DNA of 64,000 nt from Cubamyces lactineus. Taxonomy: Eukaryota > Basidiomycota > Agaricomycetes > Polyporales > Polyporaceae. The translations under genes were made by a program, and so were the position numbers. The stretch covers positions 1-64,000 of the forward strand of contig JACDTU010000008.1 of NCBI GenBank assembly GCA_022376465.1, in the 5' to 3' direction. The notes below the pieces were generated by a model, which did no database searches, was not told the DNA's origin, and saw only the letters and a list, made by a program, of their open reading frames with translations. Below are positions 16-39,363 of this stretch, in pieces; positions within the stretch are counted from its first letter, which is position 1; the number at the start of each line of letters is the position of its first letter.

Positions 16-1901
16 CTAAAAACCCGTCTCAAAATCTGTAGCCCTGAGTGCGTTAATAGAAATATTGTCCTCTTCGTCCTCTTCGTCCTCTTCGTCTGAG
101 ATCTCCTCAGACTCGTCCTCTAAGTCCTCGTCGTAACCTGTCGTACCTTCCGACTGACGGGTTTGCCGGGCTTCTTAGGTTTAGAAGGACAGTCTCTGGA
201 AATATGTCCCGGCTTCCTGCACCGGAAACATAGTCCCTTGTCTTGCAGCTCCTGTCTCTCCTTGACAGAGAGCTTGTTAATATCGAGCGAGTCGTCCTCG
301 ATATTAACCGTCTTGACATTCTTCCTAGTCTTCGAGGTTTTGGCCTTGCGTCCTCTGCGATTAGCCAAAATCTTCTCCGTAAGGTGATAGCTATGGTCGA
401 TCTCCTTAGTCCTAGTCATCCACTCTTCAATGGTCGTCGGCGGAGGGTACGACATGGATATCTTCTTAAGTAAATATTCTGGAAGCGCATTCCTGTACAG
501 GGCCAGTTGCGCTGCTGGGTCCAGAATTTTTCCCTTGAGAGCTAGATCCATGAACCTCGCATTGAACTCATCAACTGAAGAGTAGTCCTTGAGCTGTATT
601 GTCGTGAGATTAACCATAGAGTCGTCCACCTCGTCTACTGGGGCAAATGCGAGCAGGAAATTCCTTTTGAAGACCGGCCAAGAGTCAAATCCTCGATAGA
701 CTCCCGGTCTAATTTCCTCTTCAGCTCGCTGAATTGTGATGTCCTTCCAGTAGTTTATATTGTCCCCTTCCATGAAGGATAGGGCCGTTGCCACCTTCGT
801 GTAGTCATTAACGAAGTCGTGGGGCCGTGCCGTGAACAACAGGAACAGTTGATTGAGGAAGGACCTGGTTTTGTCTCGGTCTCCGTTGAAGACCTCAGGG
901 TCCTTGATCTTGCCTTTCCCTTGTCCTTGCGGCACATTTCCTGGCGCATTTCCTGGAGCTTCTTGCGGTTCCGGGTCTGGGTCTGGTCCTGGTGGTCCTC
1001 CTCCTGGGGAGTAGGGATCTGAAGGCTCAGGGTCAGGCCGACCTCCGGGCCTACCTGGTCCGCCTCCTCCTCCACCTCCAGAAGGATTGATAACTCCTCC
1101 AGAAATTGCCGTTGCCCGAGGGGCTGGTCCACTTGATAAAGACCCGTATCTTTCTCCTTCTGAGCCTTGCCCTTGCGGAGTGAACGCATATCTATGGGCT
1201 CCAGAAATGGACTCTCCTGTCGCTGTTCCCGACATGTACGATGGTACTGATTTTCGTACAAATTCTGGGGTTGCGCTGCGACCAGTATACTCCAATTCAG
1301 ATTTAGTCTCCTCGACCTCTGTCTGAATATGCTCTTCTCTCGGTTCAGGTGTGTCTACCTCGATCCGAGTGTCTTCTGTCTTCGATGCAGGTACTATGAC
1401 CTTAATCCGAACAGTTTCTTCGATTTTCGGTTCAGGTGCTTCGACCGTTGTCCGAAAAGTCTCGTCCTCCTTGTCCGAGTCCTCTACCTTAGACGGTTCG
1501 GTCTCCTTTCCTTTCTCCTTGAAGGATGGACCTGATTCCTTAGGTGATTCGGATTCTTGAGGTTTCGGGGTTCCTACTCTTGAAGTCGGAAACGATCCTG
1601 ACACAACTCTCGGACTATTAATCCGACCAGTAGCCTTTCCAGCAAGTAGTGGCTTCTTGACTAACGCGGGTTGTCGTCCGTGGGTGTTAGTAATATCCCG
1701 CTCTTGTGAAGAGTGTGTTAGGATTAAAGCCGATGCGTGCTTGACGTTTGGAACCTCCTTAGTGTTGTACCGAAGTGGACACCTTTCGTTGGTGCAAAAA
1801 TTCCACTTGTCTACGCTTTCTCGATAGTATACGTCCCGAGCTTTGTCGGAGTTGTAGAGATGATATAACCTTGAACAACTATATGGTTCAGCTGAACTCA
1901 T
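16..1901 (-). pseudogene. gag: Gag of element A' (frameshifted near its C terminus)
   Basis: Structural Gag polyprotein of the retrotransposon. The ATG at 1901 opens 593 codons that match the Gag of copy A. Order: a Glu/Pro/Thr-rich N-terminal third, a Gly/Pro-rich linker, a retrotransposon gag (capsid) domain containing 'FLNQLFLLFTARP', and a CCHC zinc knuckle (CFRCRKPGHISRDC). Compared with copy A one C is missing at about 133, so the acidic C-terminal tail is read out of frame and the ORF stops at 120. In the undisturbed frame the stop would be the TAG at 16-18, directly preceded by the slippery heptamer at 19-25. Against copy A there is also an in-frame 5-codon indel in the Pro/Gly linker. 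The 1-nt loss could be real decay or an assembly error. Confidence 0.85.
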
Positions 1902-2773
1902 ACACGTTGTGCTTGTCGTAGGAAAGCCTGATGTAGTTCCCTAGCTCGGAGGCAACTACGGAATTTCCTAAGATTTTCTTCGAGGTCTATATCTGCGTAG
2001 TTCTCCGGATTGATAACCTTTGCTCGCAGGTAGTCAATCTGGTTCTGAAGATATTCCGCAAAGTTCCGTACCCTCGTTGGAGGCGTAACAGCTTGTCTTG
2101 GAATAAATTCGAGTGTCTGGATGACCTGAGTTATATATCGATGCGCCCGTTCGAGAGTCGCGTGATATCTCCTCGTGAAGTCTTCCTGTCCTAGTACTTC
2201 CAAGTTATCTGCTATAACTCGAAGTGTATCGACCGCGTGCACCGGAAGCTGTGTTCTCCGATAGAATATCCCGTCCGTTGAGGATGCTTCTTCAACACTT
2301 GTTCCTGGAGTCGATCGATCCGAACTATCCGTTCCTGGACTCGCTCGGGTTGGAATGGGTACGCCTATTGCTACTCCTGATTCCGCCTGAATGGCCAGAG
2401 AATTCCTATATTCTCTCCACTCGTCTGTTCTCTGAAACGCGGGTTCTTGTTCCGATACTCGAGTGCTCCGACCCGACGATGTCGAACTGGTACTTTCTAC
2501 GTAAGGGATTGTCGAGCTAAAACCTCTTATCAAGGGGAATGGGGATCCTCCTGGCGATCTTGGGAGAGCAACTATATTCTCCGGGATCGCGAGTGGTGGT
2601 AAGCTCGGCAGTGTTTTGTTCCTTCCGCCTAGTACCCTGGGTGATTGTCGCAATGGGGGTTGTGTAGTTCCCTCCGTATTGACTATCGTCTCTCTGTACG
2701 TTACGAGCAAGAGAGAGTTCTGATGCGTTTCGTAGTCGTTGTCTTCCGACGTAGGCCTCTGCACTTTTAACAA
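1898..2773 (-). CDS. AUG-less ORF1 of element A' (Gag leader ORF)
   Basis: A stop-free frame of about 290 codons lies between the primer binding site and gag. It has no methionine codon at all; 2773 is a TTG and only marks a convenient boundary. The predicted product is Arg/Ser/Thr-rich at the N-terminal side and helical toward the C terminus, with many Leu, Arg and Tyr and motifs such as 'REYRNSLAIQAESG' and 'LEVLGQEDFTRRYHATLE'. The ORF ends in TGA overlapping the gag ATG (ATGA at 1901-1898). Copy A at 24787-25599 has the same ORF without indels. I recognise no domain. It is either a non-AUG-initiated leader protein or coding after a splice I cannot see. Confidence 0.6.
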   Translation of the reverse strand: MLKVQRPTSEDNDYETHQNSLLLVTYRETIVNTEGTTQPPLRQSPRVLGGRNKTLPSLPPLAIPENIVALPRSPGGSPFPLIRGFSSTIPYVESTSSTSSGRSTRVSEQEPAFQRTDEWREYRNSLAIQAESGVAIGVPIPTRASPGTDSSDRSTPGTSVEEASSTDGIFYRRTQLPVHAVDTLRVIADNLEVLGQEDFTRRYHATLERAHRYITQVIQTLEFIPRQAVTPPTRVRNFAEYLQNQIDYLRAKVINPENYADIDLEENLRKFRSCLRARELHQAFLRQAQRV

Positions 2774-2785
2774 GTGGAGGGTTAA

Positions 2786-2797
2786 AGCTTTCAGTCT
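2786..2797 (-). other. Self-primer binding site of element A'
   Basis: The 12 bases read AGACTGAAAGCT on the minus strand, 2 nt inside the LTR. They are exactly complementary to AGCTTTCAGTCT at 2977-2966 in the LTR, where the transcript is expected to start (about 32 nt after the TATA box). No tRNA match was seen. Confidence 0.75.
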
Positions 2798-2799
2798 AA

Positions 2800-3339
2800 T
2801 GTTACGCTTTCGAGCGTGACTCTTAAACTATCAAGCCTTAAGACGTCAATGAATAGAGAGCTTGTATCTATTCAGCTACTAGCCCTAGCTTGTCGAAGAT
2901 AAGCGCGTAGTAGTGTTTGCAGTTGAGAGCGAGTTAACGAGCAACCAAAGTCGTATTTCGCGAAGAGACTGAAAGCTGAGGGTCGCTCTATGGCGTCGCC
3001 TCTTATATACATGTATACCAGCCTGTAGACGGAACGTTCTAGCGTATACAAGGACTTTCTGGTGCATAGTAGTCAGCGCTAGTCGAACCTAGTAACACTG
3101 TGGCAGTGCTGCTGTGTACTGTGCAGAAGCGCTGTGCACTGCGCGGAAGCGACTGTGCACTGTGCAGAAGTAACTGTGCATGGAAAGTCCTAGATAATAC
3201 GAGACTGTTCCATAGAATCCGCCATATACAATCGTAGCTGGAGTCCCAGAGCCTACCATACTTGTATCGTACAGAGTAAGTACTAGAAACCGTTACCAGT
3301 TCGTCGAGACGTCGCAATACCTATTGTACATTCGTAACA
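2800..3339 (-). repeat. 5' LTR of element A'
   Basis: A 540-bp LTR that begins TGTTAC and ends GTAACA in its own orientation, homologous to 24157-24697 and 38402-38943. It contains a TATATAAG-type TATA box and the GCACAGTTACT-type tandem repeats. Confidence 0.93.
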
Positions 3340-4003
3340 TCCGGTGGTCGGGACTTGGACGGAGTTCGGGGTCGGAGTACGACCGGAGGTCGGACTAGCA
3401 CTGGGGTGAGGACTTTCGCGAAACTATTAGTAACGCACGGGTTCCGACTCGGTGTCCTCTATTTGCGGACTTCGGAGTACGGACTTGACGGGGCGAAGGT
3501 CGGACTTGGGGACAGGGTTGGGTTGAAGGGGTTGGTAGGAAGGGAACGAAGGTTGGTCGGACTAGAGGGTCGGGGTTGAGTGTCGGACTACGAGTTGAAC
3601 CAGTAATGGGTATAACGAGATTTCCGAACTGAGTAGCTACTACATTCCGGGGCAGTATTTATACTAAGTCAGAAACCCGATAGAAACAATAAGAGATGTA
3701 CGTGATAGGAAGGAGTAGAACGAAAGTACGAAGTAACTTGCCAAGGGTAAGATAACGTAGATAGCTCAGTAAGCAAAAGCCTCATGTAGGTAGCGCCATG
3801 AGGGGTTATCTGAGACATGTAAGTCATGGGGTCGGGGGGAAGTCCGAAGTACGGAGTACGAAGTGCGGAGTACGGAGAACGGAGTCGGGGGTACGGGGTA
3901 CGGAAGAGCGGAGTACGGAGGAACGGAGTACGTAACGCGGAGTAAGGAGCGGGGTACGGGGGTTCGGGGATCGGGCTTCGGGGTTACAGCACGGAGCGTA
4001 ACA
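3340..4003 (-). repeat. Family B LTR (copy B0), interrupted by A'
   Basis: This minus-strand copy begins TGTTACGCTCCGTG at 4003. It matches the family B LTR for 664 bp, then stops where A' is inserted; about 30 bp of its 3' end must lie beyond A'. It was inserted into the plus-strand LTR of B1. Whether it is a solo LTR or the end of a whole element cannot be seen. Confidence 0.88.
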
Positions 4004-4527
4004 GACCCCATGACTTACATGTCTCAGATAACCCCTCATGGCGCTACCTACATGAGGCTTTTGCTTACTGAGCTATCTACGTTATCTTACCCTTGGCAAG
4101 TTACTTCGTACTTTCGTTCTACTCCTTCCTATCACGTACATCTCTTATTGTTTCTATCGGGTTTCTGACTTAGTATAAATACTGCCCCGGAATGTAGTAG
4201 CTACTCAGTTCGGAAATCTCGTTATACCCATTACTGGTTCAACTCGTACTCCGACACTCAACCCCGACTCTCTAGTCCGACCAACCTTCGTTCCCTTGCT
4301 ACCTACCCCTTCGACCCAACCCTGTCCCCAAGTCCGACCTTTGCCCCGTCAAGTCCGTACTCCGTAGTCCGTAAATAGAGGACATCGAGTCGGAACCCGT
4401 GCGTTACTAATAGTTTCGCGAAAGTCCTCACTCCAGTGCTAGTCCGACCTCCGGTCGTACTCCGACCCCGAACTCCGTCCAAGTCCCGACCACCGGAGTT
4501 GTACCCCCGGACGGCACGGTCCTAACA
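4004..4527 (+). repeat. 5' LTR of element B1 (3' three-quarters only)
   Basis: This matches the last 524 of the 693 bp of the B2 LTR and ends CCTAACA. The first 169 bp are separated from it by the B0 insertion and lie outside the window. It contains the TATAAATA box and the self-primer sequence. It resembles the B2 LTR more than B1's own 3' LTR. Confidence 0.88.
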
Positions 4528-23135: not shown

Positions 23136-23828
23136 TGTTACGCTCCGTGCTGTAACCCCGAAGCCCGATCCCCGAACCCCCGTACCCCGCTCCTTACTCC
23201 GCGTTACGTACTCCGTTCCTCCGTACTCCGCTCTTCTGTACCCCGTACCCCCGACTCCGTTCTCCGTACTCCGCACTTCGTACTCCGTACTTCGGACTTC
23301 CCCCGACCCCATGACTTACATGTCTCAGATAACCCCTCATGGCGCTACCTACATGAGGCTTTTGCTTACTGAGCTATCTACGTTATCTTACCCTTGGCAA
23401 GTTACTTCGTACTTTCGTTCTACTCCTTCCTATCACGTACATCTCTTATTGTTTCTATCGGGTTTCTGACTTAGTATAAATACTGCCCCGGAATGTAGTA
23501 GCTACTCAGTTCGGAAATCTCGTTATACCCATTACTGGTTCAACTCGTAGTCCGACACTCAACCCCGACCCTCTAGTCCGACCAACCTTCGTTCCCTTCC
23601 TACCAACCCCTTCAACCCAACCCCGTTCCCAAGTCCGACCTTCGTCCCGTCAAGTCCGTACTCCGAAGTCCGCAAATAGAGGACACCGAGTCGGAACCCG
23701 TGCGTTACTAATAGTTTCGCGAAAGTCCTCACCCCAGTGCTAGTCCGACCTCCGGTCGTACTCCGACCCCGAACTCCGTCCAAGTCCCGACCACCGGAGT
23801 TGTACCCCCGGACGGCACGGTCCTAACA
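23136..23828 (+). repeat. 3' LTR of element B2
   Basis: 693 bp, essentially identical to 15513-16205. It is preceded by the polypurine tract AGGGGGGAGG (23123-23132) and followed by the duplicated target gggag. Confidence 0.95.
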
Positions 23829-24098
23829 GGGAGTTCTTCTTCAGCTAGTTCGTTGTACTTGACTCGGTATTCAGGGGAGATTCGAAGGCACTCTTGCCAG
23901 GTGAGTGGATGGGGAGCGAAGTGCCACGATTTGTCCTCCCAGTAGACTTGGTCTTCTCCGTAGTATACTAGCTTGGTCTCTTTGTTCGCCGAGTAAACTG
24001 TCGGCTGTTCTTCCGTTTCGTTGGGTTCAGGCGCACTCTATTTCAGAGCCGCGCCGATCGGTGTCGTCTGAATCTGGGTAGATTGACGGCGATTCGTG
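23829..24098 (-). pseudogene. gag: 5' end of element C gag (AUG-less N-terminal extension)
   Basis: This is the part of the C leader/gag frame separated from the rest by B2. Read on the minus strand it encodes a Glu-rich segment with VYYGEDQVYWEDKSWHFAPH and ECLRISPEYRVKYNELAEE, running without a shift across the B2 site and the solo LTR site into the Gag ATG at 14743. One base shift near 24,040 separates it from an upstream piece (PDSDDTDRRGSEIE). No ATG is present on this strand here. Confidence 0.65.
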
Positions 24099-24108
24099 AG
24101 CTCGATCT
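24099..24108 (-). other. Self-primer binding site of element C
   Basis: AGATCGAGCT on the minus strand, 2 nt inside the LTR end (24111), is complementary to AGCTCGATCT at 39054-39045, about 35 nt after the C TATA box (39089-39080). The two are now separated by the 14.8-kb insertion of element A. Confidence 0.7.
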
Positions 24109-24156
24109 AATGTTATGACGAGCCTAGATCGGTCACGCGGTGGCTGAGCTAGGGGT

Positions 24157-24697
24157 TGTTACAAATGTACGATAGGCGTCTTACGAACTGTACGATTTGG
24201 TATGGTCTCTACTTCCGTCTCTGTACTATATGAATATGGCGGACTCTAGGATTCTAGCTACGGTTCTTAAAGACAGGAATGGTCTCGTATTATCTAGGAC
24301 TCTCTAGGACTTTCTATGCACAGTTACTGCTGCACAGTGCACAGTTACTTCCGCGCAGTGCACAGGCGCTTCTGCACAGTCCACAGCAGCACTGCCACAG
24401 TGTTACTAGGTTCGACTAGCGCTGACTACTACGCACCAGAAAGTCCATGTACACGCTAGAACATTCCGTCTACAGGCCTGCATACATGTATATAAGAGGC
24501 GACGCCATAAAGCGACCCTCAGCTTTCAGTCTCTTCGCGAAATACGACTTTGTTGCTCGTTAACTCGCTTTCAACTGCAAATACTACTACGCGCTTATCT
24601 TCGACAAGCTAGGGCTAGTAGCTGAATAGATACAAGCTCTCTATTCATTGACGTCTTAAGGCTTGATAGTTTAAGAGTCACGCTCGAAAGCGTAACA
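24157..24697 (+). repeat. 5' LTR of element A
   Basis: TGTTACAAATG to AGCGTAACA. U3 carries three tandem 21-bp units (24318-24380) of the type GCACAGTTACT..GCACAGT. TATATAAG is at 24489-24496 and the likely transcript start/self-primer AGCTTTCAGTCT at 24521-24532. Confidence 0.95.
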
Positions 24698-24699
24698 TT

Positions 24700-24711
24700 A
24701 GACTGAAAGCT
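24700..24711 (+). other. Self-primer binding site of element A
   Basis: AGACTGAAAGCT, 2 nt after the LTR, is a perfect 12-nt complement of AGCTTTCAGTCT at 24521-24532, which starts 32 nt after the TATA box. Tf1-type self-priming is the simplest reading. Confidence 0.78.
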
Positions 24712-24738
24712 TTAACCCTCCACTTGTTAAAAGTGTAG

Positions 24739-25599
24739 AGGCCTACGTCGGAAGACAACGACTACGAAACGCATCAGAACCCTCTCTTGCTCGTAACGTA
24801 CAGAGAGACAATAGTCAATACGGAGGGAACTACACAACCCCCATTGCGACAATCACCCGGGGTACTAGACGGAAGGAACAAAACACTGCCGAGGCTACCA
24901 CCACTCGCGATCCCGGAGAATATAGTTGCTCTCCCAAGTTCGCCAAGAGGATCCCCATTCCCCTTGATAAGAGGTTTTAGCTCGACAATCCCTTACGTAG
25001 AAAGTACCAGTTCAATATCGTCGGGTCAGAGCACTCGAGTATCGGACCACGAACCCGCGTTTCAGCGAACACAAGAGTGGAGAGAATATAGGAATTCTCT
25101 GGCCATTCAGGCGGAATCAGGAGTAGCAATAGGCGTACCCATTCCAACCCGAGCGAGTCCAGGAACGGATAGTTCGGATCGATCGACTCCAGAAACTAGT
25201 GTTGAAGAAGCATCCTCAACGGCAGGGATATTCTATCGGAGAACACAGCTTCCGGTGCACGCGATCGATACACTTCGAGTTATAGCAGATAACTTGGAAG
25301 TACTAGGACAGGAAGACTTCACGAGGAGATATCACGCGACTCTCGAACGAGCCCATCGATACATAACTCAGGTCATCCAGACACTCGAATTTATTCCAAG
25401 ACAAGCTGTTACGCCTCCAACGAGGGTACGGAACTTTGCGGGATATCTTCAGAACCAGATTGACTACCTGCGAGCAAAGGTCCTCAATCCGGAGAACTAC
25501 GCAGATATAGACCTCGAAGAAAATATTAGGAAATTTCGTAGTTGCCTCCGAGCTAGGGAACTACATCAGGCTTTCCTACGACAAGCACAACGTGTATGA
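24739..25599 (+). CDS. AUG-less ORF1 of element A (Gag leader ORF)
   Basis: A frame open from the TAG at 24736-24738 (CAG in copy A') to the TGA at 25597-25599, 286 codons without a methionine. In fact no ATG occurs in any frame from the predicted transcript start (24521) to the gag ATG at 25596. The product resembles that of A' over its whole length with substitutions but no indels, which argues that it is or was translated. Its C-terminal 110 residues look helical (DTLRVIADNLEVLGQEDFTR, NQIDYLRAKV). The stop overlaps the gag start as ATGA. Possible readings: non-AUG initiation with reinitiation at gag, or a constrained packaging leader. No known domain recognised. Confidence 0.6.
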   Translation, partial: RPTSEDNDYETHQNPLLLVTYRETIVNTEGTTQPPLRQSPGVLDGRNKTLPRLPPLAIPENIVALPSSPRGSPFPLIRGFSSTIPYVESTSSISSGQSTRVSDHEPAFQRTQEWREYRNSLAIQAESGVAIGVPIPTRASPGTDSSDRSTPETSVEEASSTAGIFYRRTQLPVHAIDTLRVIADNLEVLGQEDFTRRYHATLERAHRYITQVIQTLEFIPRQAVTPPTRVRNFAGYLQNQIDYLRAKVLNPENYADIDLEENIRKFRSCLRARELHQAFLRQAQRV

Positions 25600-27470
25600 G
25601 TTCAGCTGAACCATATAGTTGTTCAAGGTTATATCATCTCTACAACTCCGACAAAGCTCGGGACGTATACTATCGAGAAAGCGTAGACAAGTGGAATTTT
25701 TGCACCAACGAAAGGTGTCCACTTCGGTACAACACTAAGGAGGTTCCAAACGTCAAGCACGCATCGGCTTTAATCCTAACACACTCTTCACAAGAGCGAG
25801 ATATTACTAACACCCACGGACGACAACCCGCGTTAGTCAAGAAGCCACTACTTGCTGGAAAAGCTACTGGTCGGATTAATAGTCCGAGAGTTGTGTCAGG
25901 ATCGTTTCCGACTTCAAGAGTAGGAACCCCAAAACCTCAAGAATCCGAATCACCTAAGGAATCAGGTCCATCCTTCAAGGAGAAAGGAAAGGAGACCGAA
26001 CCGCCTAAGGTAGAGGACTCGGACAAGGAGGACGAGACTTTTCGGACGACGGTCGAAGCACCTGAACCGAAAATCGAAGAAACTATTCAGATTAAGGTCG
26101 TAGTACCTGCACCGAAAACAGAAGACACTCGGGTCGAGGCAGAAACACCTGAACCGAGAGAAGAGCATATTCAGACAGAGGTCGAGGAGACTAAATCTGA
26201 ATTGGAGTATACTGGTCGCAGCGCAACCCCAGAATTTGTACGAAAATCAGTACCATCGTACATGTCGGGAACAGCGACAGGAGAGTCCATTTCTGGAGCC
26301 CATAGATATGCGTTCACTCCGCAAGGGCAAGGCTCAGAAGGAGAAAGATACGGGTCTTTATCAAGTGGACCAGCCCCTCGGGCAACGGCAATTTCTGGAG
26401 GAGTTATCAATCCTTCTGGAGGTGGAGGAGGAGGCGGACCAGGTAGGCCCGGAGGTCGGCCTGACCCTGAGCCTTCAGATCCCTACTCCCCAGGAGGAGG
26501 ACCACCAGGACCAGACCCAGACCCGGAACCGCAAGAAGCTCCAGGAAATGCGCCGCAAGGACACGGAAAGGGCAAGATCAAGGACCCTGAGGTCTTCAAC
26601 GGAGACCGAGACAAAACCAGGTCCTTCCTCAATCAACTGTTCCTGTTGTTCACGGCGCGACCCCACGACTTCGTTAATGATTACACGAAGGTGGCGACGG
26701 CCCTATCCTTCATGGAAGGGGACAATATAAACTACTGGAAGGACATCACAATTCAGCGAGCTGAAGAGGAAATTAGACCGGGAGTCTATCGAGGATTTGA
26801 CTCTTGGCCGGTCTTCAAGAGGAATTTCCTGCTCGCATTTGCCCCAGTAGATGAGGTGGATGACTCTATGGTTAATCTCACGACGATACAGCTCAAGGAC
26901 TACTCTTCAGTCGATGAGTTCAATGCGAGGTTCATGGATCTAGCTCTTAAGGGAAAAATTCTGGACCCAGCAGCGCAACTGGCCCTGTACAGGAATGCGC
27001 TTCCAGAATATTTACTGAAGAAGATATCCATGTCGTACCCTCCGCCGACGACCATTGAAGAGTGGATGACTAGGACTAAGGAGATCGACCATAGCTATCA
27101 CCTTACGGAGAAGATTTTGGCTAATCGCAGAGGACGCAAGGCCAAAACCTTGAAGACTAAGAAGAATGTCAAGACGGTTAATATCGAGGACGACTCGCTC
27201 GATATTAACAAGCTCTCTGTCAAGGAGAGACAGGAGCTGCAAGACAAGGGACTATGTTTCCGGTGCAGGAAGCCGGGACATATTTCCAGAGATTGTCCTT
27301 CTAAACCTAAGAAGCCCGGCAAACCTGTTAGTCGAAAGGTACGACAGGTTACCGACGAGGACTTAGAGGACGAGTCTGAGGAAATCTCAGACGAAGAGGA
27401 CGACGAGGACGAAGAGGACAATGTTTCTATTAACGCACTCAGGGCTACAGATTTCGAGACGGGTTTTTAG
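25596..27470 (+). CDS. gag: Gag of element A
   Basis: 624 aa. The ATG at 25596 is the first ATG of the predicted transcript, 1,075 nt from its start. Order: an N-terminal segment with YSCSRLYHLYNS and CTNERCPLRY, a long Glu/Pro/Thr acidic region (about 110-200), a Gly/Pro linker (about 265-320), a capsid-type gag domain (about 325-510, with FLNQLFLLFTARPHDF), a basic stretch, a CCHC knuckle CFRCRKPGHISRDC (near 553), and a very acidic Glu/Asp tail. It ends TAG at 27468-27470 directly on a slippery heptamer. The acidic tail may mask basic charge in Gag-Pol; that is inference. Confidence 0.93.
   Translation: MSSAEPYSCSRLYHLYNSDKARDVYYRESVDKWNFCTNERCPLRYNTKEVPNVKHASALILTHSSQERDITNTHGRQPALVKKPLLAGKATGRINSPRVVSGSFPTSRVGTPKPQESESPKESGPSFKEKGKETEPPKVEDSDKEDETFRTTVEAPEPKIEETIQIKVVVPAPKTEDTRVEAETPEPREEHIQTEVEETKSELEYTGRSATPEFVRKSVPSYMSGTATGESISGAHRYAFTPQGQGSEGERYGSLSSGPAPRATAISGGVINPSGGGGGGGPGRPGGRPDPEPSDPYSPGGGPPGPDPDPEPQEAPGNAPQGHGKGKIKDPEVFNGDRDKTRSFLNQLFLLFTARPHDFVNDYTKVATALSFMEGDNINYWKDITIQRAEEEIRPGVYRGFDSWPVFKRNFLLAFAPVDEVDDSMVNLTTIQLKDYSSVDEFNARFMDLALKGKILDPAAQLALYRNALPEYLLKKISMSYPPPTTIEEWMTRTKEIDHSYHLTEKILANRRGRKAKTLKTKKNVKTVNIEDDSLDINKLSVKERQELQDKGLCFRCRKPGHISRDCPSKPKKPGKPVSRKVRQVTDEDLEDESEEISDEEDDEDEEDNVSINALRATDFETGF
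27461..27467 (+). promoter_or_regulatory. -1 ribosomal frameshift site, element A gag-pol
   Basis: G_GGT_TTT in the gag frame, followed at once by TAG (27468). Slipping back one base enters the pol frame (TTA at 27467), open from there and lacking a nearby ATG. The identical heptamer lies at the gag ends of A' (25-19) and of C (13716-13710). Confidence 0.75.
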
Positions 27471-30400
27471 GCAGGCAAGCAGACTCGACGCCTGACTTGC
27501 CCAAGGAACTGCATGTAACTATTGTAACCAATACAGAGCGGAGACGCAGTGCTCTGCTGATACCCGGTTACATGCAGGTTCAGGACAAAGCCGTCGAAAT
27601 CAAGGGACTCATTGACACTGGTGCGGATGCCGTGATCGTCAATAAAAAGATTGTGGACAAGTACAATCTTCCGACAGTCAGACTACCAAAGACTCTGACT
27701 TTCCGGAACGCGGACGATAGCGTTAATAGCATGGGAACCATTACCCATCGAGTGGAGGGGACATTTAATCTCCACGGGAAGAAGCTCCCAACAAATTGGT
27801 ATGTGGCCGACATTGGGCGGGACGATGTCCTATTCGGCATGCCATGGATCCGCAAGTACAATCCTAATATCGACTGGGAAAGTGGTCGCATTACTTTCAA
27901 GTCGGATATTATCAAGAAGCAGCAGCAGATCCATAAATACCAATGCGAGCACGACCCACCTGAAGGGATGCTGTGGAACTTCCCAGTAAAACCTCTAAAT
28001 CAAGACCTGGTCGTATCGTTCGTACGTGCTATACCGGACGAGGACGACGCAGACCCAGACTCCGAAAGGCTTACATTTAATCCTTCGAGGGCCATTGAGC
28101 TATGGTACCGCAAGAAGAAAATCCGAAAGATTAATAAGTCTACGGAGATCGCTATAGCAGCGAAGAAAGACCAGAAGGAGAAGACCTTGGACGAAATCCT
28201 ACCTGATTTTGTAAAGGACTACCGACAGGTCTTTGAGAAAAAGGCAGCAAGTAGATTTCCGCCCTCGAGACCATGGGACCATGCTATCGAATTCAAGAAG
28301 GACTTCGACCATCATACCAAGGGGTCTTGGAGGAAAATCTACCCTCTGACCTATACGGAACGTATAGAACTCGACAAATTCATTGCGGAGAACCTTGAGA
28401 AGGGCTACATTCGAAAATCCAAGTCTCCACTAGCCTCGCCATTTTTCTTTGTCACCAAGAAAGATGGGAGTCTTCGACCTGTTCAAGACTACAGGGCTCT
28501 TAACGAGGGGACTATTAAAAACGCATATCCCTTGCCGCTCATCAGCGACATCATTGACCGGCTGAAGGGGGCCACAATATTCACCAAACTCGACGTGCGA
28601 GCAGGGTACAATAATGTGCGCATCAAGGAGGGCGATGAGTGGAAAGCTGCGTTTATAACACCCAGTGGATTGTTCGAACCAACAGTCATGTTTTTTGGTC
28701 TGTGCAATGCACCGGCCACATTCCAAAACATGATGAACGACCTCTTCCGAGACATGCTCCAGGAAGGATGGATGGTCATTTATATGGACGACATCCTGAT
28801 ATTCTCAGACAATGTCGAGGATCACCATGAGCGGACGCGAAGAGCTTTACAGCGACTTCAAGACAGTGATCTATTCCTCAAAGCGGAAAAATGCGAATTC
28901 GACAGACAAGAAGTCGAATTCCTAGGATCAATAATCCGACCGGGGGTAGTCGCTATGGATCCAGTAAAGCTAAAGGCAATTATCGAGTGGGAACCACCGA
29001 AAACAGTCAAGCAGGTTCAGGCATTCCTGGGGTTCGGTAATTTCTACCGACGGTTCATTCGGGATTATTCAAAGATAGTCCGACCCCTCACGGAATTAAC
29101 CAAGAAGGACCAGCCTTTTCTGTGGACCCCTGATTGTCAGAAAGCATTTGACACACTCAAGAAGCGGTTTACTGAAGAACCGATCCTGCAAATCCCGGAT
29201 CCGGAGAAACCATTTCAGATTGAGTGCGATGCTTCTAAAGTCGCAACAGGTGCTGTACTACGACAGCAAGGAGAGGACGGACTATGGCATCCTTGTGCCT
29301 ATTTGTCCAAGTCCTTTACTCCTGCGGAACGGAACTATCAGATTTATGATAGGGAATTGTTGGCCATTGTTCGAGCCCTCGAAGCATGGCGGCATTTTTT
29401 GCAGGGTTCCCCACACCCTACAGAAATTCTATCAGATCACAAAAATCTGACCTACTTCCGTACGGCGCAGAAGCTAAATCGCAGGCAGGCACGATGGCAT
29501 TTATTCCTCTCGGAGTTCAACATCGTAATCAAGCACCAACCCGGAAAATCCCTCACTCAAGCAGACGCCCTTTCTCGGAGATCAGGGCATGACGGGGGGG
29601 AAAATGACAACAAGGATGTCGTATTATTGGGACCAGAACTTTTTGCCAAAGCTGTCAACGTTGAGCTACAAGAGCGCATCCGCGATAGCAAGCTACGGGA
29701 CAGCTCGGTAGTAGAGTACATTACCCTAAAAGGAAAGGCTACCAAACGCCCAGAGTTCGGCAAACCAGAAGATTGGTCCGACGACGACGGAATACTCCTG
29801 TACAAGAACAGGGTATATGTTCCACCAGATAATCAATTGTATCGTGATATAGTCAAGATGCATCACGACGCACCGATTATGGGACACCCAGGAGTCCAGA
29901 AAACCTACGATCTGGTTAAACGGGAATATATGTGGCCAGGCATGCGGAAATTCATTGTGCAATATGTCAAAGGTTGCGCCGCTTGCCAAACAAGCAAGGT
30001 CAATACGCATCCCATTAAACCAGGCTTAATTCCCATTCAACACAGTGGGGATACTAGGCCTTTCCGGACCATTACAATGGATTATATCACGGATCTACCA
30101 GAGTCGGATGGATTCAATGCCGTCCAAGTGGTAGTTGACCATGATGTATCCAAGGCAGCGGTATTTTCCCCTTGCACTAAGAATATTACGGCAGAAGGAG
30201 CCATGGATATTCTGCAAAGGGATGTATATCGCAGATTCGGACTACCTGCGAAGGTCATCTCGGATCGAGGGCCGCAATTCATCTCCAAGGCATTCAAAGA
30301 ATTACACAACAGCCTCGGAATTGAAACGGCACTCAGCACGGCCTATCATCCTCAGACAGATGGGGAAACGGAGCGAGTCAATCAGGAACTCGACTTAGCA

Positions 30401-31120
30401 CTTCGGCTCTACTGTGCTAACAATCCGGAGAACTGGGCCAAACTGCTGCCTCAATTCGAATTCGCGCACAATCAGCGGACACACTCTGTCACGGGAAAAT
30501 CCCCGTTTGAACTCCTCTACGGGTTTCAGCCAGAGGCCGCTGGGACAGTCCGAACCACCCCAAAGCATCCAAGTACGGAGCAGAGGCTTCAAAGTCTTCA
30601 GGAAGCCAGGGAGAATACAATAGCTGCGCATGCGCAGGCCGCCGCAGCCATGTCAAGAAGACTCCCCGCTGCTCAAGTTCCGCTGAAGCTCGGAGACAAG
30701 GTTCTTCTCGATACAAAGAACCTCAGGCTTCCATATGTCTCTAGGAAGTTGATTCCAAAACGAGTGGGACCGTTCGCTATCGTCAAGGTCTTGGGACCGG
30801 TTACATTTAAGTTAAAACTTCCGGAGAAATGGAAGATACACCCAGTCTTCCACGCAGCGCTACTTACTCCGTACCACACAACTAAGGAGCACGGACCAGA
30901 CTACATCCGACCTCCACCGATTCCCACTCCAGACTCGACGGAAGGAGAGGAATGGGAGGTAGAAGCAATCCTAAGCCACCGTACCCGAGGTACCCGAAAA
31001 CAGTACCTAGTGGCTTGGAAGGGTTGGCCTGCATCGGAGAATTCTTGGGAACCAGAAAAACATCTCAAGAATGCGCAGTCAATCCTGCGCAACTATAAGA
31101 AGAGGCACAAATTGTCGTAA
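27467..31120 (+). CDS. pol: Pol of element A (protease, RT, RNase H, integrase, chromodomain)
   Basis: One open frame of 1,217 codons, expected as part of Gag-Pol. Order: aspartic protease (IKGLIDTGADAVIV near residue 45), RT ([56 protein letters not shown]), RNase H (IECDASKVATGAVLRQQ; YDRELLAIVRALEAWRHF; LSDHKNLTYF), integrase (HHDAPIMGHPG...CAACQ zinc segment; core acidic residues in MDYITDLP, ISDRGPQF and TDGETERVNQ), and a C-terminal chromodomain (EWEVEAIL...YLVAWKGWPASENSWEPEKHL). All catalytic residues I can check are present, so this copy looks enzymatically complete. Confidence 0.95.
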   Translation, partial: LGRQADSTPDLPKELHVTIVTNTERRRSALLIPGYMQVQDKAVEIKGLIDTGADAVIVNKKIVDKYNLPTVRLPKTLTFRNADDSVNSMGTITHRVEGTFNLHGKKLPTNWYVADIGRDDVLFGMPWIRKYNPNIDWESGRITFKSDIIKKQQQIHKYQCEHDPPEGMLWNFPVKPLNQDLVVSFVRAIPDEDDADPDSERLTFNPSRAIELWYRKKKIRKINKSTEIAIAAKKDQKEKTLDEILPDFVKDYRQVFEKKAASRFPPSRPWDHAIEFKKDFDHHTKGSWRKIYPLTYTERIELDKFIAENLEKGYIRKSKSPLASPFFFVTKKDGSLRPVQDYRALNEGTIKNAYPLPLISDIIDRLKGATIFTKLDVRAGYNNVRIKEGDEWKAAFITPSGLFEPTVMFFGLCNAPATFQNMMNDLFRDMLQEGWMVIYMDDILIFSDNVEDHHERTRRALQRLQDSDLFLKAEKCEFDRQEVEFLGSIIRPGVVAMDPVKLKAIIEWEPPKTVKQVQAFLGFGNFYRRFIRDYSKIVRPLTELTKKDQPFLWTPDCQKAFDTLKKRFTEEPILQIPDPEKPFQIECDASKVATGAVLRQQGEDGLWHPCAYLSKSFTPAERNYQIYDRELLAIVRALEAWRHFLQGSPHPTEILSDHKNLTYFRTAQKLNRRQARWHLFLSEFNIVIKHQPGKSLTQADALSRRSGHDGGENDNKDVVLLGPELFAKAVNVELQERIRDSKLRDSSVVEYITLKGKATKRPEFGKPEDWSDDDGILLYKNRVYVPPDNQLYRDIVKMHHDAPIMGHPGVQKTYDLVKREYMWPGMRKFIVQYVKGCAACQTSKVNTHPIKPGLIPIQHSGDTRPFRTITMDYITDLPESDGFNAVQVVVDHDVSKAAVFSPCTKNITAEGAMDILQRDVYRRFGLPAKVISDRGPQFISKAFKELHNSLGIETALSTAYHPQTDGETERVNQELDLALRLYCANNPENWAKLLPQFEFAHNQRTHSVTGKSPFELLYGFQPEAAGTVRTTPKHPSTEQRLQSLQEARENTIAAHAQAAAAMSRRLPAAQVPLKLGDKVLLDTKNLRLPYVSRKLIPKRVGPFAIVKVLGPVTFKLKLPEKWKIHPVFHAALLTPYHTTKEHGPDYIRPPPIPTPDSTEGEEWEVEAILSHRTRGTRKQYLVAWKGWPASENSWEPEKHLKNAQSILRNYKKRHKLS

Positions 31121-32433
31121 AAAGACTCAACCCACTCCTCACTCAAATATTCCCTCCAATTTTCTAAACATTTTCTGATATTCACTATGGTCAACACTCG
31201 CACTCATCTCACTGGTCGCCGCTTCTCTGAGGCTTCCAGACGCAACATTCCCCGTCCCCCCAACTTCATCCGCGAACGGAGGACGGTTTTCTACAACCAC
31301 CTCCCTCGACACACTGTCTCGGCCAACGACGAAGGCACCCTCGCCGACCGCATCGGCTGGGTCATTGTCCACCCCGACCTCTACAGTCACGTAGAGGCTC
31401 GAATTTCTCATCTCCCTGAGGTCAAGGACCTCATCGACGTCTACCGCTCTCTCGCCAGGGCTGCTCCGTCCTACGGAGTTCTCGTCAACTATAACAAGAG
31501 GACGTCGGCGCCCAAGTCGGAGAAGAAGAAGGTCGATCAGGTTGCGAACGAGGCTTACCAGGCGGTGATCCAAGGAGCAGAGAAGGTACTCTCGATGCTC
31601 GCTAACCCCCAGATCGCGGGGGCTCTCTCGGATCTCATGCCCCTCCGCAACCAACACGGTACTCATAACTGGGGACATATTTTCTGGCCGCAACGTCTCG
31701 ATGACTACCCGGAGTCTATCGAGGTAGATGAGGATGAAGACGCGGACGTGAGTTCAGTCGGAGGATGGTCAGTTCCCTCAACTGACCCATGGAAGATTGC
31801 TACTCCAGACCCCGAGGAAGAAGCCGTCAAGTGGGGACAAACCTCTGAGGAGTCCACCCCCTCTTTGGTTTCATCTCGCTCGGATTCACCTTACTCCGAG
31901 GTGGAATCGTTCGACTTTCTCCCGGAGCTTGAGCATCTCGAGCTCAGTACGGTTGACGAGGTCGACGAGCTCCTTGAGGAGGAGTTCCACGAAGCCCTGA
32001 AGGTCGCGGTTAGGGCACCCTCTCCTCCTCCTCCCCCACCAGCGACTCTCACTAAGAACGCTGAAGAACCTCGCGGACGCTGCGGTTTCTTTCGAGGAAC
32101 CGGAGAAGATCGACTTGGCTATGTCAATTCCAACGGCGACATCTTCGTGGTCCCCAACAATCCTTTCGGCATCTCCGTCACTCGGATCATGGTCGCATAC
32201 CATCTGCGATGGCCGGAAGCTTCTGTCAGGACCACAATGGCAGCCTCTCTCCTTATCGACGACGTCATCGCTCGTCGAGGAAATTTCCCTGCCTTCAAGA
32301 TCGAGGCCGAACGCACCCCGACGACTTATCGCCAGGCTATAGGCATGTCGGCGGCAGAATCGGCGCAGTGGGATTGTATTCGGGCAGTAGGTAACGTGTC
32401 TGACCTCGTCCAGACCTCTTTGGACGTCTTCCG

Positions 32434-32731
32434 TGTCGAACTAGACGCGCATTAGGCGCTGACTAATAGCAGGCTAGTAAGCGGGAATGGACACGAGGCT
32501 ACCAGTCTCCTGGAGAAAGTTCCGGATACTGTGGCTGAGGTACTACATAGTATGACATCGTACTATACAGTATTACATCATAGCCTCCGTGTACATGTAT
32601 ATAAGGCTGCTCTGTAGGAGCAGTACAACAAGTCGCTCTTAACCTTCAATCCCTACGTGTGCCTCTATTCAGAGCTCTACAGGTAAGTGAGCTAGTGGGG
32701 CTTTCCACTGCGTAACAAGCCCAGCTCAACA
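32434..32731 (+). repeat. 5' LTR of the Copia element
   Basis: 298 bp, TGTCGAACTAG to AGCTCAACA. TATATAAG is at 32598-32605. A GTAAGT splice donor (32683) lies in the transcribed part. Confidence 0.96.
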
Positions 32732-37959: not shown

Positions 37960-38018
37960 ATCCGCTACATTCAGCCTGCGCGCTCGCGCACACTACCGTG
38001 GTGCTTAGCGAGGGGGAG

Positions 38019-38316
38019 TGTCGAACTAGACGCGCATTAGGCGCTGACTAATAGCAGGCTAGTAAGCGGGAATGGACACGAGGCTACCAGTCTCCTGGAG
38101 AAAGTTCCGGATACTGTGGCTGAGGTACTACATAGTATGACATCGTACTATACAGTATTACATCATAGCCTCCGTGTACATGTATATAAGGCTGCTCTGT
38201 AGGAGCAGTACAACAAGTCGCTCTTAACCTTCAATCCCTACGTGTGCCTCTATTCAGAGCTCTACAGGTAAGTGAGCTAGTGGGGCTTTCCACTGCGTAA
38301 CAAGCCCAGCTCAACA
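38019..38316 (+). repeat. 3' LTR of the Copia element
   Basis: 298 bp, same as 32434-32731 base for base as far as I can read, preceded by the polypurine tract GAGGGGGAG. Confidence 0.96.
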
Positions 38317-38401: not shown

Positions 38402-38943
38402 TGTTACAAATGTACGATAGGCGTCTTACGAACTGTACGATTTGGTATGGTCTCTACTTCCGTCTCTGTACTATATGAATATGGCGGACTCTAGGATTCT
38501 AGCTACGGTTCTTAAAGACAGGAATGGTCTCGTATTATCTAGGACTCTCTAGGACTTTCTATGCACAGTTACTGCTGCACAGTGCACAGTTACTTCCGCG
38601 CAGTGCACAGGCGCTTCTGCACAGTCCACAGCAGCACTGCCACAGTGTTACTAGGTTCGACTAGCGCTGACTACTACGCACCAGAAAGTCCATGTACACG
38701 CTAGAACATTCCGTCTACAGGCCTGCATACATGTATATAAGAGGCGACGCCATAAAGCGACCCTCAGCTTTCAGTCTCTTCGCGAAATACGACTTTTGTT
38801 GCTCGTTAACTCGCTTTCAACTGCAAATACTACTACGCGCTTATCTTCGACAAGCTAGGGCTAGTAGCTGAATAGATACAAGCTCTCTATTCATTGACGT
38901 CTTAAGGCTTGATAGTTTAAGAGTCACGCTCGAAAGCGTAACA
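38402..38943 (+). repeat. 3' LTR of element A
   Basis: 542 bp, one T longer than the 5' LTR, preceded by GGAGGGGGAG and followed by the duplicated target ggggt. Confidence 0.95.
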
Positions 38944-39363
38944 GGGGTCATGTCGCCTCGAGGAGTAGCGAAGAGGCGATTCGGGGATCGAAGGTCTTCT
39001 GAGAAGAGGCGAGTCGGGGTTCGGTGAATAGGCAATAGATAACCAGATCGAGCTGAGGTTCTTCGAAGAAGATCCTCGGTTTATATATACATGGCCGAGA
39101 CTAATAATAGACCGGATCAATGTTCAGTACGGCTAAGTATAGCTGGGGCTGACTGTACATGGGAATAAAGGTGACGTGTCCTGAGAATAAATGATGTGGC
39201 ACTGACATGGCATGGGAGAGTAGAGCTAAGTATACAACACATGAGTAAGCCGCAGCAGGCTCGGCCTCCGGAACGTAAGCACGATACATAAGCATAGGAC
39301 AAGTCACGAGACCAAGACGTAACCGTAACCGTAACAGTGGCCGTGTCACGCACCGTCGTAACA

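Follow-up and report, generated by a model that had tools for sequence, protein, structure and literature searches.

An ATG-free leader with a conserved open reading frame ahead of gag in a Ty3/gypsy retrotransposon of Cubamyces lactineus

How would ribosomes translate a retrotransposon RNA whose leader contains no ATG for more than one kilobase and keeps a long reading frame open in front of gag? This question is raised by an element, hereafter element A, found in the 64,000-nt window (the whole stretch of DNA that was analysed) of contig JACDTU010000008.1 from Cubamyces lactineus (GCA_022376465.1; genome of 36.3 Mb in 43 contigs). We call the leader reading frame ahead of gag LORF. Searching the genome with the LORF protein gave 62 A-family places with 94-100% identity, and the leaders were read in 42 of them, including that of A′, the second copy in the window. 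A second family, B′, is represented by twelve fuller copies matching the LORF protein at 65-72%; the leaders of these twelve were also read, giving 54 for A and B′ together.

Element A is a Ty3/gypsy chromovirus LTR retrotransposon, as defined by its LTRs and target-site duplication and by the pol domain order with a chromodomain. Its general features are the following:

24152-24156 (no strand): target-site duplication GGGGT of 5 bp, with its partner at 38944-38948, found by inspection of the sequence
24157-24697, plus strand: 5′ LTR, 99.8% identical to 38402-38943
38402-38943, plus strand: 3′ LTR, lying beyond a nested copia-type element
24521-24532, plus strand: predicted mRNA 5′ end and self-primer, AGCTTTCAGTCT, the reverse complement of the primer-binding site, identical in 42/42 A and 9/12 B′ copies
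24700-24711, plus strand: primer-binding site (PBS), AGACTGAAAGCT, present in 54/54 copies
25596-27470, plus strand: gag, 624 codons, with a zinc knuckle above the Pfam cut-off and a Retrotrans_gag match below it
27434-31120, plus strand: pol frame with protease, RT, RNase H, integrase and chromodomain (ORF list and Pfam)
27461-27467, plus strand: GGGTTTT, predicted -1 frameshift site adjoining the gag stop TAG (27468-27470), pol being in the -1 frame

The Pfam matches in pol, every one above the cut-off, occur in the order RVP_2, RVT_1, RNase H, H2C2, rve, SH3 and Chromo, and the closest gag match is from Trametes cubensis (90% identity). The PBS is complementary to the predicted mRNA 5′ end at 12 of 12 bases, and this complement places the RNA 5′ end without relying on promoter guesses. 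A PBS complementary to the mRNA 5′ end is likewise described for Tf1 and Tj1, Ty3/gypsy elements of another fungal host, fission yeast (PMC4600332, in part); element A has this Tf1-type feature, self-priming itself being a prediction. On the other hand, the available part of that source makes no mention of a leader ORF. The U5/PBS stretch at 24600-24740 has a stable predicted fold (z -2.3), as might suit a self-priming structure. The copia-type element nested within element A has its LTRs at 32433-32731 and 38018-38316, and interrupts another open frame, the third, about 440 codons long (31121-32430), that follows pol in the same frame, with a first ATG shortly past the pol stop; this frame has 103 genome matches, many intact at 94-100% identity, and no Pfam match. 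Elsewhere in the window, a second Ty3/gypsy-like family is nested around the A copies between 3340 and 23798 (LTR pieces at 4004, 11585, 15682 and 23305, and an inverted piece at 3340-3838).

From the predicted 5′ end to gag (24521-25595, 1075 nt) there is no ATG on the plus strand against 12 on the minus strand, and the sole plus-strand ATG up to 25600 is that of gag at 25596. The same is true of A′, whose coding strand (2977-1902, minus) has none in 1076 nt; both counts bear out the initial annotation. No interval of the window without ATG is longer than 24486-25596 on the plus strand or 1901-3012 on the minus strand, the latter belonging to A′. ATG codons are not common in other copies either, since all 42 A-family leaders read have none. 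On the minus strand, another 916 nt without ATG span the LTR region (23532-24448).

How many ATGs should be expected depends on the null model, and the figure of about 17 first given, for equal base use, must be read in this light: base composition predicts 16.0 and a first-order Markov chain 6.6, while synonymous shuffling of LORF codons, which preserves protein and codon usage, predicts 4.5 out-of-frame ATGs against 0 observed (P = 0.0003, 3000 shuffles). In the other A and B′ copies tested, the same shuffling gave P values between 0.0003 and 0.003. The N-terminal part of gag is modestly depleted as well, with 0 ATG against 2.8 expected (P = 0.023 in A; P = 0.027 in B′), and no depletion was found by this test in C-terminal gag (P = 0.58) or pol (P = 0.85). 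When the A-to-B′ substitutions were placed at random, 8.6-8.9 leader ATGs were expected, against 0, 1 and 2 in three B′ copies (P ≤ 0.005); for N-terminal gag, P was 0.0025-0.0035 in two of these copies and 0.071 in the third, which has two ATGs. Selection against ATG, as proposed at the outset, is therefore supported by both the codon-preserving shuffles and the random-substitution test.

The 12 B′ leaders have ATG at 22 alignment columns, where it is never the majority state (5 of 12 at most); at 16 of the 22, ACG stands in most other B′ copies. These ATGs look like what would be expected from C-to-T (CpG) decay of dead copies. In the old B′ copies L048-L057, L067, L072 and L074, ATG gains are chiefly changes of ACG to ATG. 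Compared with pol, LORF is enriched in ACG (P = 0.017) and ATA (P = 0.003) and somewhat low in CTG (P = 0.037), weak differences given that ten triplets were examined.

The frame that crosses this leader is present in both copies of the window:

24739-25599, plus strand: LORF, 286 codons and the stop TGA (25597-25599), with no ATG in any frame before 25596
1898-2827, minus strand: LORF of A′, open for 309 codons (ORF list, genome search and leader reading)

LORF has only 286 codons in the present copy because of a TAG at 24736-24738, and is open for 309 codons in 55 of the 62 A-family places. This codon is polymorphic, being TAG in 4 of 42 A copies (the present one included) and CAG in the others; 36 of the 42 have no other stop up to the LORF end. 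The initial annotation had reported a frame of about 290 codons conserved without indels. The length and the openness stand, as no stop interrupts the aligned part of LORF in any of the 62 places; the freedom from indels does not, as copy L058, one among the copies read, carries indels where the frame begins.

Between A and B′ (dS about 0.5, dN about 0.19) the dN/dS of LORF is 0.36-0.40 over 30 pairs, with a bootstrap interval of 0.27-0.54 in the three pairs tested, against 0.85-1.16 and 9-15 stops each in the two other leader frames; this evidence comes from closely related copies, with DNA from two families only. For comparison, the ratio is 0.33-0.37 in N-terminal gag and 0.11 in part of C-terminal gag. 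Judged by these ratios, which lie below 1 as the earlier reading anticipated, LORF is under purifying selection with respect to the sister family B′ and evolves as a protein-coding gene, the constraint being strongest in its last 136 codons. Variants among A copies comprise 50 nonsynonymous and 24 synonymous changes, partly from one frame-disrupted copy, and the pair L012-L034 has a dN/dS of 1.33. Recent constraint within A is thus weak, as expected for young copies.

Two protein searches yielded 16 distinct LORF homologues with identities down to 45%, one of them named from Cerioporus squamosus. Twelve of the 16 lack any internal Met; the exceptions are P0001, with one Met, and P0008, P0013 and P0016, which by reading of their sequences seem to carry foreign ends. 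Seven homologues pooled have 0 Met in 1878 residues against about 25 expected from C-terminal gag, a figure that ignores relatedness. The LORF protein of the window has no Pfam match over the cut-off and no sequence match in the PDB. Two AlphaFold models were of low confidence (mean pLDDT 53 and 48), and Foldseek returned no match at E ≤ 0.001, merely non-significant helical bundles, a search in which a fold could be missed with such a model. The sole match in a scan of viral contigs (viral_contigs, L047) was dismissed as due to chance, the contig reading as phage-like.

If LORF is translated, it needs a start other than AUG, as was first suggested: between the 5′ end that self-priming predicts and gag, ATG is absent. 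Two codons were retained as candidates:

24745-24747, plus strand: candidate start ACG in a weaker context in A (C at -3); ACG in 42/42 A copies, and in B′ 7 ACG, 3 ATG and 2 ACA
24820-24822, plus strand: ACG, the preferred candidate for the start, in the context A at -3, G at +4; ACG in 42/42 A copies, and in B′ 9 ACG and 3 ATG with the -3 and +4 bases unchanged

Among the in-frame near-cognate codons compared within the first 70 codons, only ACG 24820 has the A at -3 and the G at +4 preserved across A and B′ alike. In the protein, a manual reading puts Thr at the corresponding position in six families, with N, K or T before it and E or A after it (automatic alignment shifts some rows by one residue). 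The TAG in four A copies and an upstream TAA in B′ imply that the LORF start lies behind them in those copies. On the other hand, a YPFL-R-LRKR motif just upstream of ACG 24820 is common to four homologues, and this speaks for initiation further 5′, for example at ACG 24745; codons 1-27 have a dN/dS of 0.66-0.70 with an interval of about 0.2-1.6, and constraint on them is not clear. ACG 24820 is therefore the best candidate, ACG 24745 being possible. GTG 24733 was rejected, since the TAG comes after it in 4/42 A copies and it falls in another frame in B′; database homologues starting with MQR probably reflect this GTG read as M by a gene caller. Folding predicted no hairpin just 3′ of the candidate ACG codons (z 1.5 and -0.3).

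A comparable codon is known from the fungus Neurospora, in the long leader of cpc-1. Within the part of the study available (PMC5487733), an ACG flanked by A at -3 and G at +4 is the most conserved of its near-cognate codons, of which at least four initiate in vitro. The resulting product is however an in-frame extension of a cellular gene, and the cpc-1 leader contains AUG uORFs.

At its other end LORF meets gag, where the following features were identified:

25596-25599, plus strand: ATGA, the gag start overlapping the LORF stop, in the weak context gtgtATGa, in 54/54 copies
25500-25640, plus strand: predicted RNA fold (z -3.3) in which a hairpin stem contains the gag ATG, partly kept in B′
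25599-26261, plus strand: ATG-free N-terminal part of gag (ATG counts, shuffles and random-substitution test)
26262-26264, plus strand: second in-frame gag ATG (Met223), the predicted start of a short Gag and the next ATG after 25596 in 40/42 A copies

The gag ATG has a non-optimal context, with U at -3 and A at +4, in all 54 copies. The hairpin modelled around it is suggestive only: between A and B′ it shows one compensatory and four one-sided changes, while 5-6 of its 48 pairs are broken (P 0.012-0.032 compared with random changes). The ATG desert extends beyond the gag start to 26262, 666 nt from the gag ATG, interrupted only by 25596; both this extension and the ATGA overlap are new with respect to the initial annotation. 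In B′, 5 of 12 copies have a matching pattern, with ATGs at gag positions 1, 583 and 635, and the other 7 have extra or shifted ATGs. The six gag homologues compared that include the N-terminus contain 0 Met in 1149 residues before the motif PS[FY]M (the first three residues omitted), whereas the 2263 residues beyond the motif contain 30 (P = 6e-6, relatedness ignored), and the Met of this motif is invariant in an alignment of seven gag sequences. Clearing of ATG past the gag start points to a leaky gag ATG, since total arrest of ribosomes there would leave no reason to clear the sequence downstream. ATG 26262 itself has a weak context (tacATGt), which weakens the short-Gag step and argues against a strong second start.

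The best explanation of these data is, we think probably, that LORF starts at a non-AUG codon and that leaky scanning through the ATG-free leader leads ribosomes to a weak gag ATG. LORF would be initiated at a near-cognate codon, preferably ACG 24820 and possibly ACG 24745, giving a low-abundance accessory protein of the element. Most scanning ribosomes would traverse the leader and, on arriving at the gag ATG, produce a long Gag; some may leak past this weak, perhaps hairpin-held codon to the in-frame ATG 26262, perhaps giving a short Gag. Finally, Pol would arise by a -1 frameshift at GGGTTTT, a site after which the predicted fold is not unusual (z 0.06). Initiation at ACG, leakage, the short Gag and frameshifting are all inferred from sequence.

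Gag could alternatively be made mainly by termination-reinitiation at ATGA after translation of LORF from a non-AUG codon, with the RNA fold retaining the post-termination ribosome. The stop/start overlap in 54/54 copies and the stable junction fold (z -3.3) are compatible with it. Furthermore, full homologues end LORF in V, I or A and begin gag with M-S or M-T, as an overlapping ATGA would demand (manual reading), and precedents are cited for caliciviruses and non-LTR retrotransposons in the available part of a review (PMC5902531). We nevertheless regard this route as unlikely, since reinitiation alone offers no reason to purge out-of-frame ATGs from LORF and the fold is only partly kept in B′, where 5-6 of 48 pairs are broken. 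Still lower is the probability, slight in our estimate, that an upstream exon supplies the LORF AUG by splicing or that ribosomes reach gag by internal entry. One gene model from Cerioporus squamosus (P0013) does fuse an ATG-bearing upstream part to LORF near its start, but element A has no ATG from the predicted 5′ end to gag. An ATG created at a junction must combine an A/GT donor with an AG/TG acceptor, because an AT/GT donor would itself contain ATG, and the sole suitable acceptor seen near the frame start (24732) has the TAG behind it in 4 A copies and, in B′, does not lie in frame. As for internal entry, it would not require ATG depletion.

It is very improbable that LORF and Gag form one polyprotein through a -1 frameshift in their 39-nt overlap. 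Gag is indeed in the -1 frame of LORF and open for 39 nt upstream of its ATG in 11/11 copies checked, but the gag ATG is constant across copies and manual reading of the overlap revealed no slippery heptamer, unlike GGGTTTT at gag-pol, on which ground such a fusion was rejected. We give almost no credence to the view that the leader is non-coding and poor in ATG through its base composition: TG is rare on the plus strand (26 against 74 CA) and the Markov null, as given above, expects just 6.6 ATGs, but the codon-preserving shuffles still show depletion, dN/dS is well below 1 in the LORF frame only, and distant protein homologues of LORF exist. Base composition as the sole cause is rejected by the shuffles, the random-substitution test and the frame-specific dN/dS.

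The non-AUG start of LORF followed by leaky scanning to gag, which we prefer, can be compared with known systems. The initial annotation had likened it to the logic of retroviral glyco-Gag. In murine leukemia virus, glyco-Gag also involves non-AUG initiation (inferred for LORF) in the leader 5′ of gag, and other gammaretroviruses are generally without AUG in the leader stretch before gag, as stated in the accessible part of PMC5778647. According to the same text, however, glyco-Gag is an in-frame N-terminal extension continuous with the Gag frame, whereas LORF would be a separate protein in another frame, ending at 25599 with a stop that overlaps the gag ATG; the reading frames thus exclude a glyco-Gag-like extension, and this part of the earlier reading fails.

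Leaky scanning in rice tungro bacilliform virus (RTBV) is the matching precedent, as a mechanism and not as a membership. According to the available part of its description (PMC5902531), RTBV, like badnaviruses (Caulimoviridae), opens with a long ORF that has no AUG start, followed by an ORF whose AUG is leaky; internal AUGs have been purged from the leading ORFs over a stretch of about 900 nt, and neighbouring ORFs share short overlaps. RTBV also has a third start. In element A, likewise, the upstream ORF is AUG-free by selection and the next AUG stands in a non-optimal context. Element A differs in being an LTR retrotransposon with integrase and chromodomain, in having gag behind the desert, and in having the third start inside the gag frame. 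Moreover, RTBV ribosomes shunt around a structured leader with short uORFs (same source, in part), whereas the leader of element A is without any ATG. Membership in the Caulimoviridae is rejected, as these are episomal pararetroviruses without LTRs or integrase and element A has both. Extra ORFs ahead of gag-pol are also described in part-available accounts of plant LTR elements (PMC7264820) and of the rice Ty3/gypsy element Retrosat2, with its ORF0 (PMC3485330). ORF0 is reported from grasses, and the available portions of both sources make no mention of a non-AUG, ATG-free design; that on Retrosat2 ORF0 mentions no AUG, ATG or start codon. No description of a non-AUG, ATG-cleared leader ORF in an LTR retrotransposon was found among open-access titles and the openings of abstracts, which is weak evidence of novelty.

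More broadly, and only tentatively, one RNA of element A may act as a 1.74-kb polycistronic scanning corridor with a single weak AUG, from which LORF, long Gag and short Gag would be made in turn and Pol by frameshifting. It would follow the plan of tungro- and badnaviruses, whether this arose convergently or is an ancient feature of reverse-transcribing elements, and its leader frame would represent a gene family invisible to ATG-based gene finders. The mechanism is open to direct tests through the constant ATGA and the second gag Met, which is invariant, and living and decayed copies together offer a natural test of the influence of scanning on long coding sequences. If the proposal is true, a conserved retroelement gene has been missed or misassigned by annotation based on start codons, and the AUG-cleared plan of leaky scanning would extend beyond plant pararetroviruses, to a fungal LTR retrotransposon with a recent history of multiplication.
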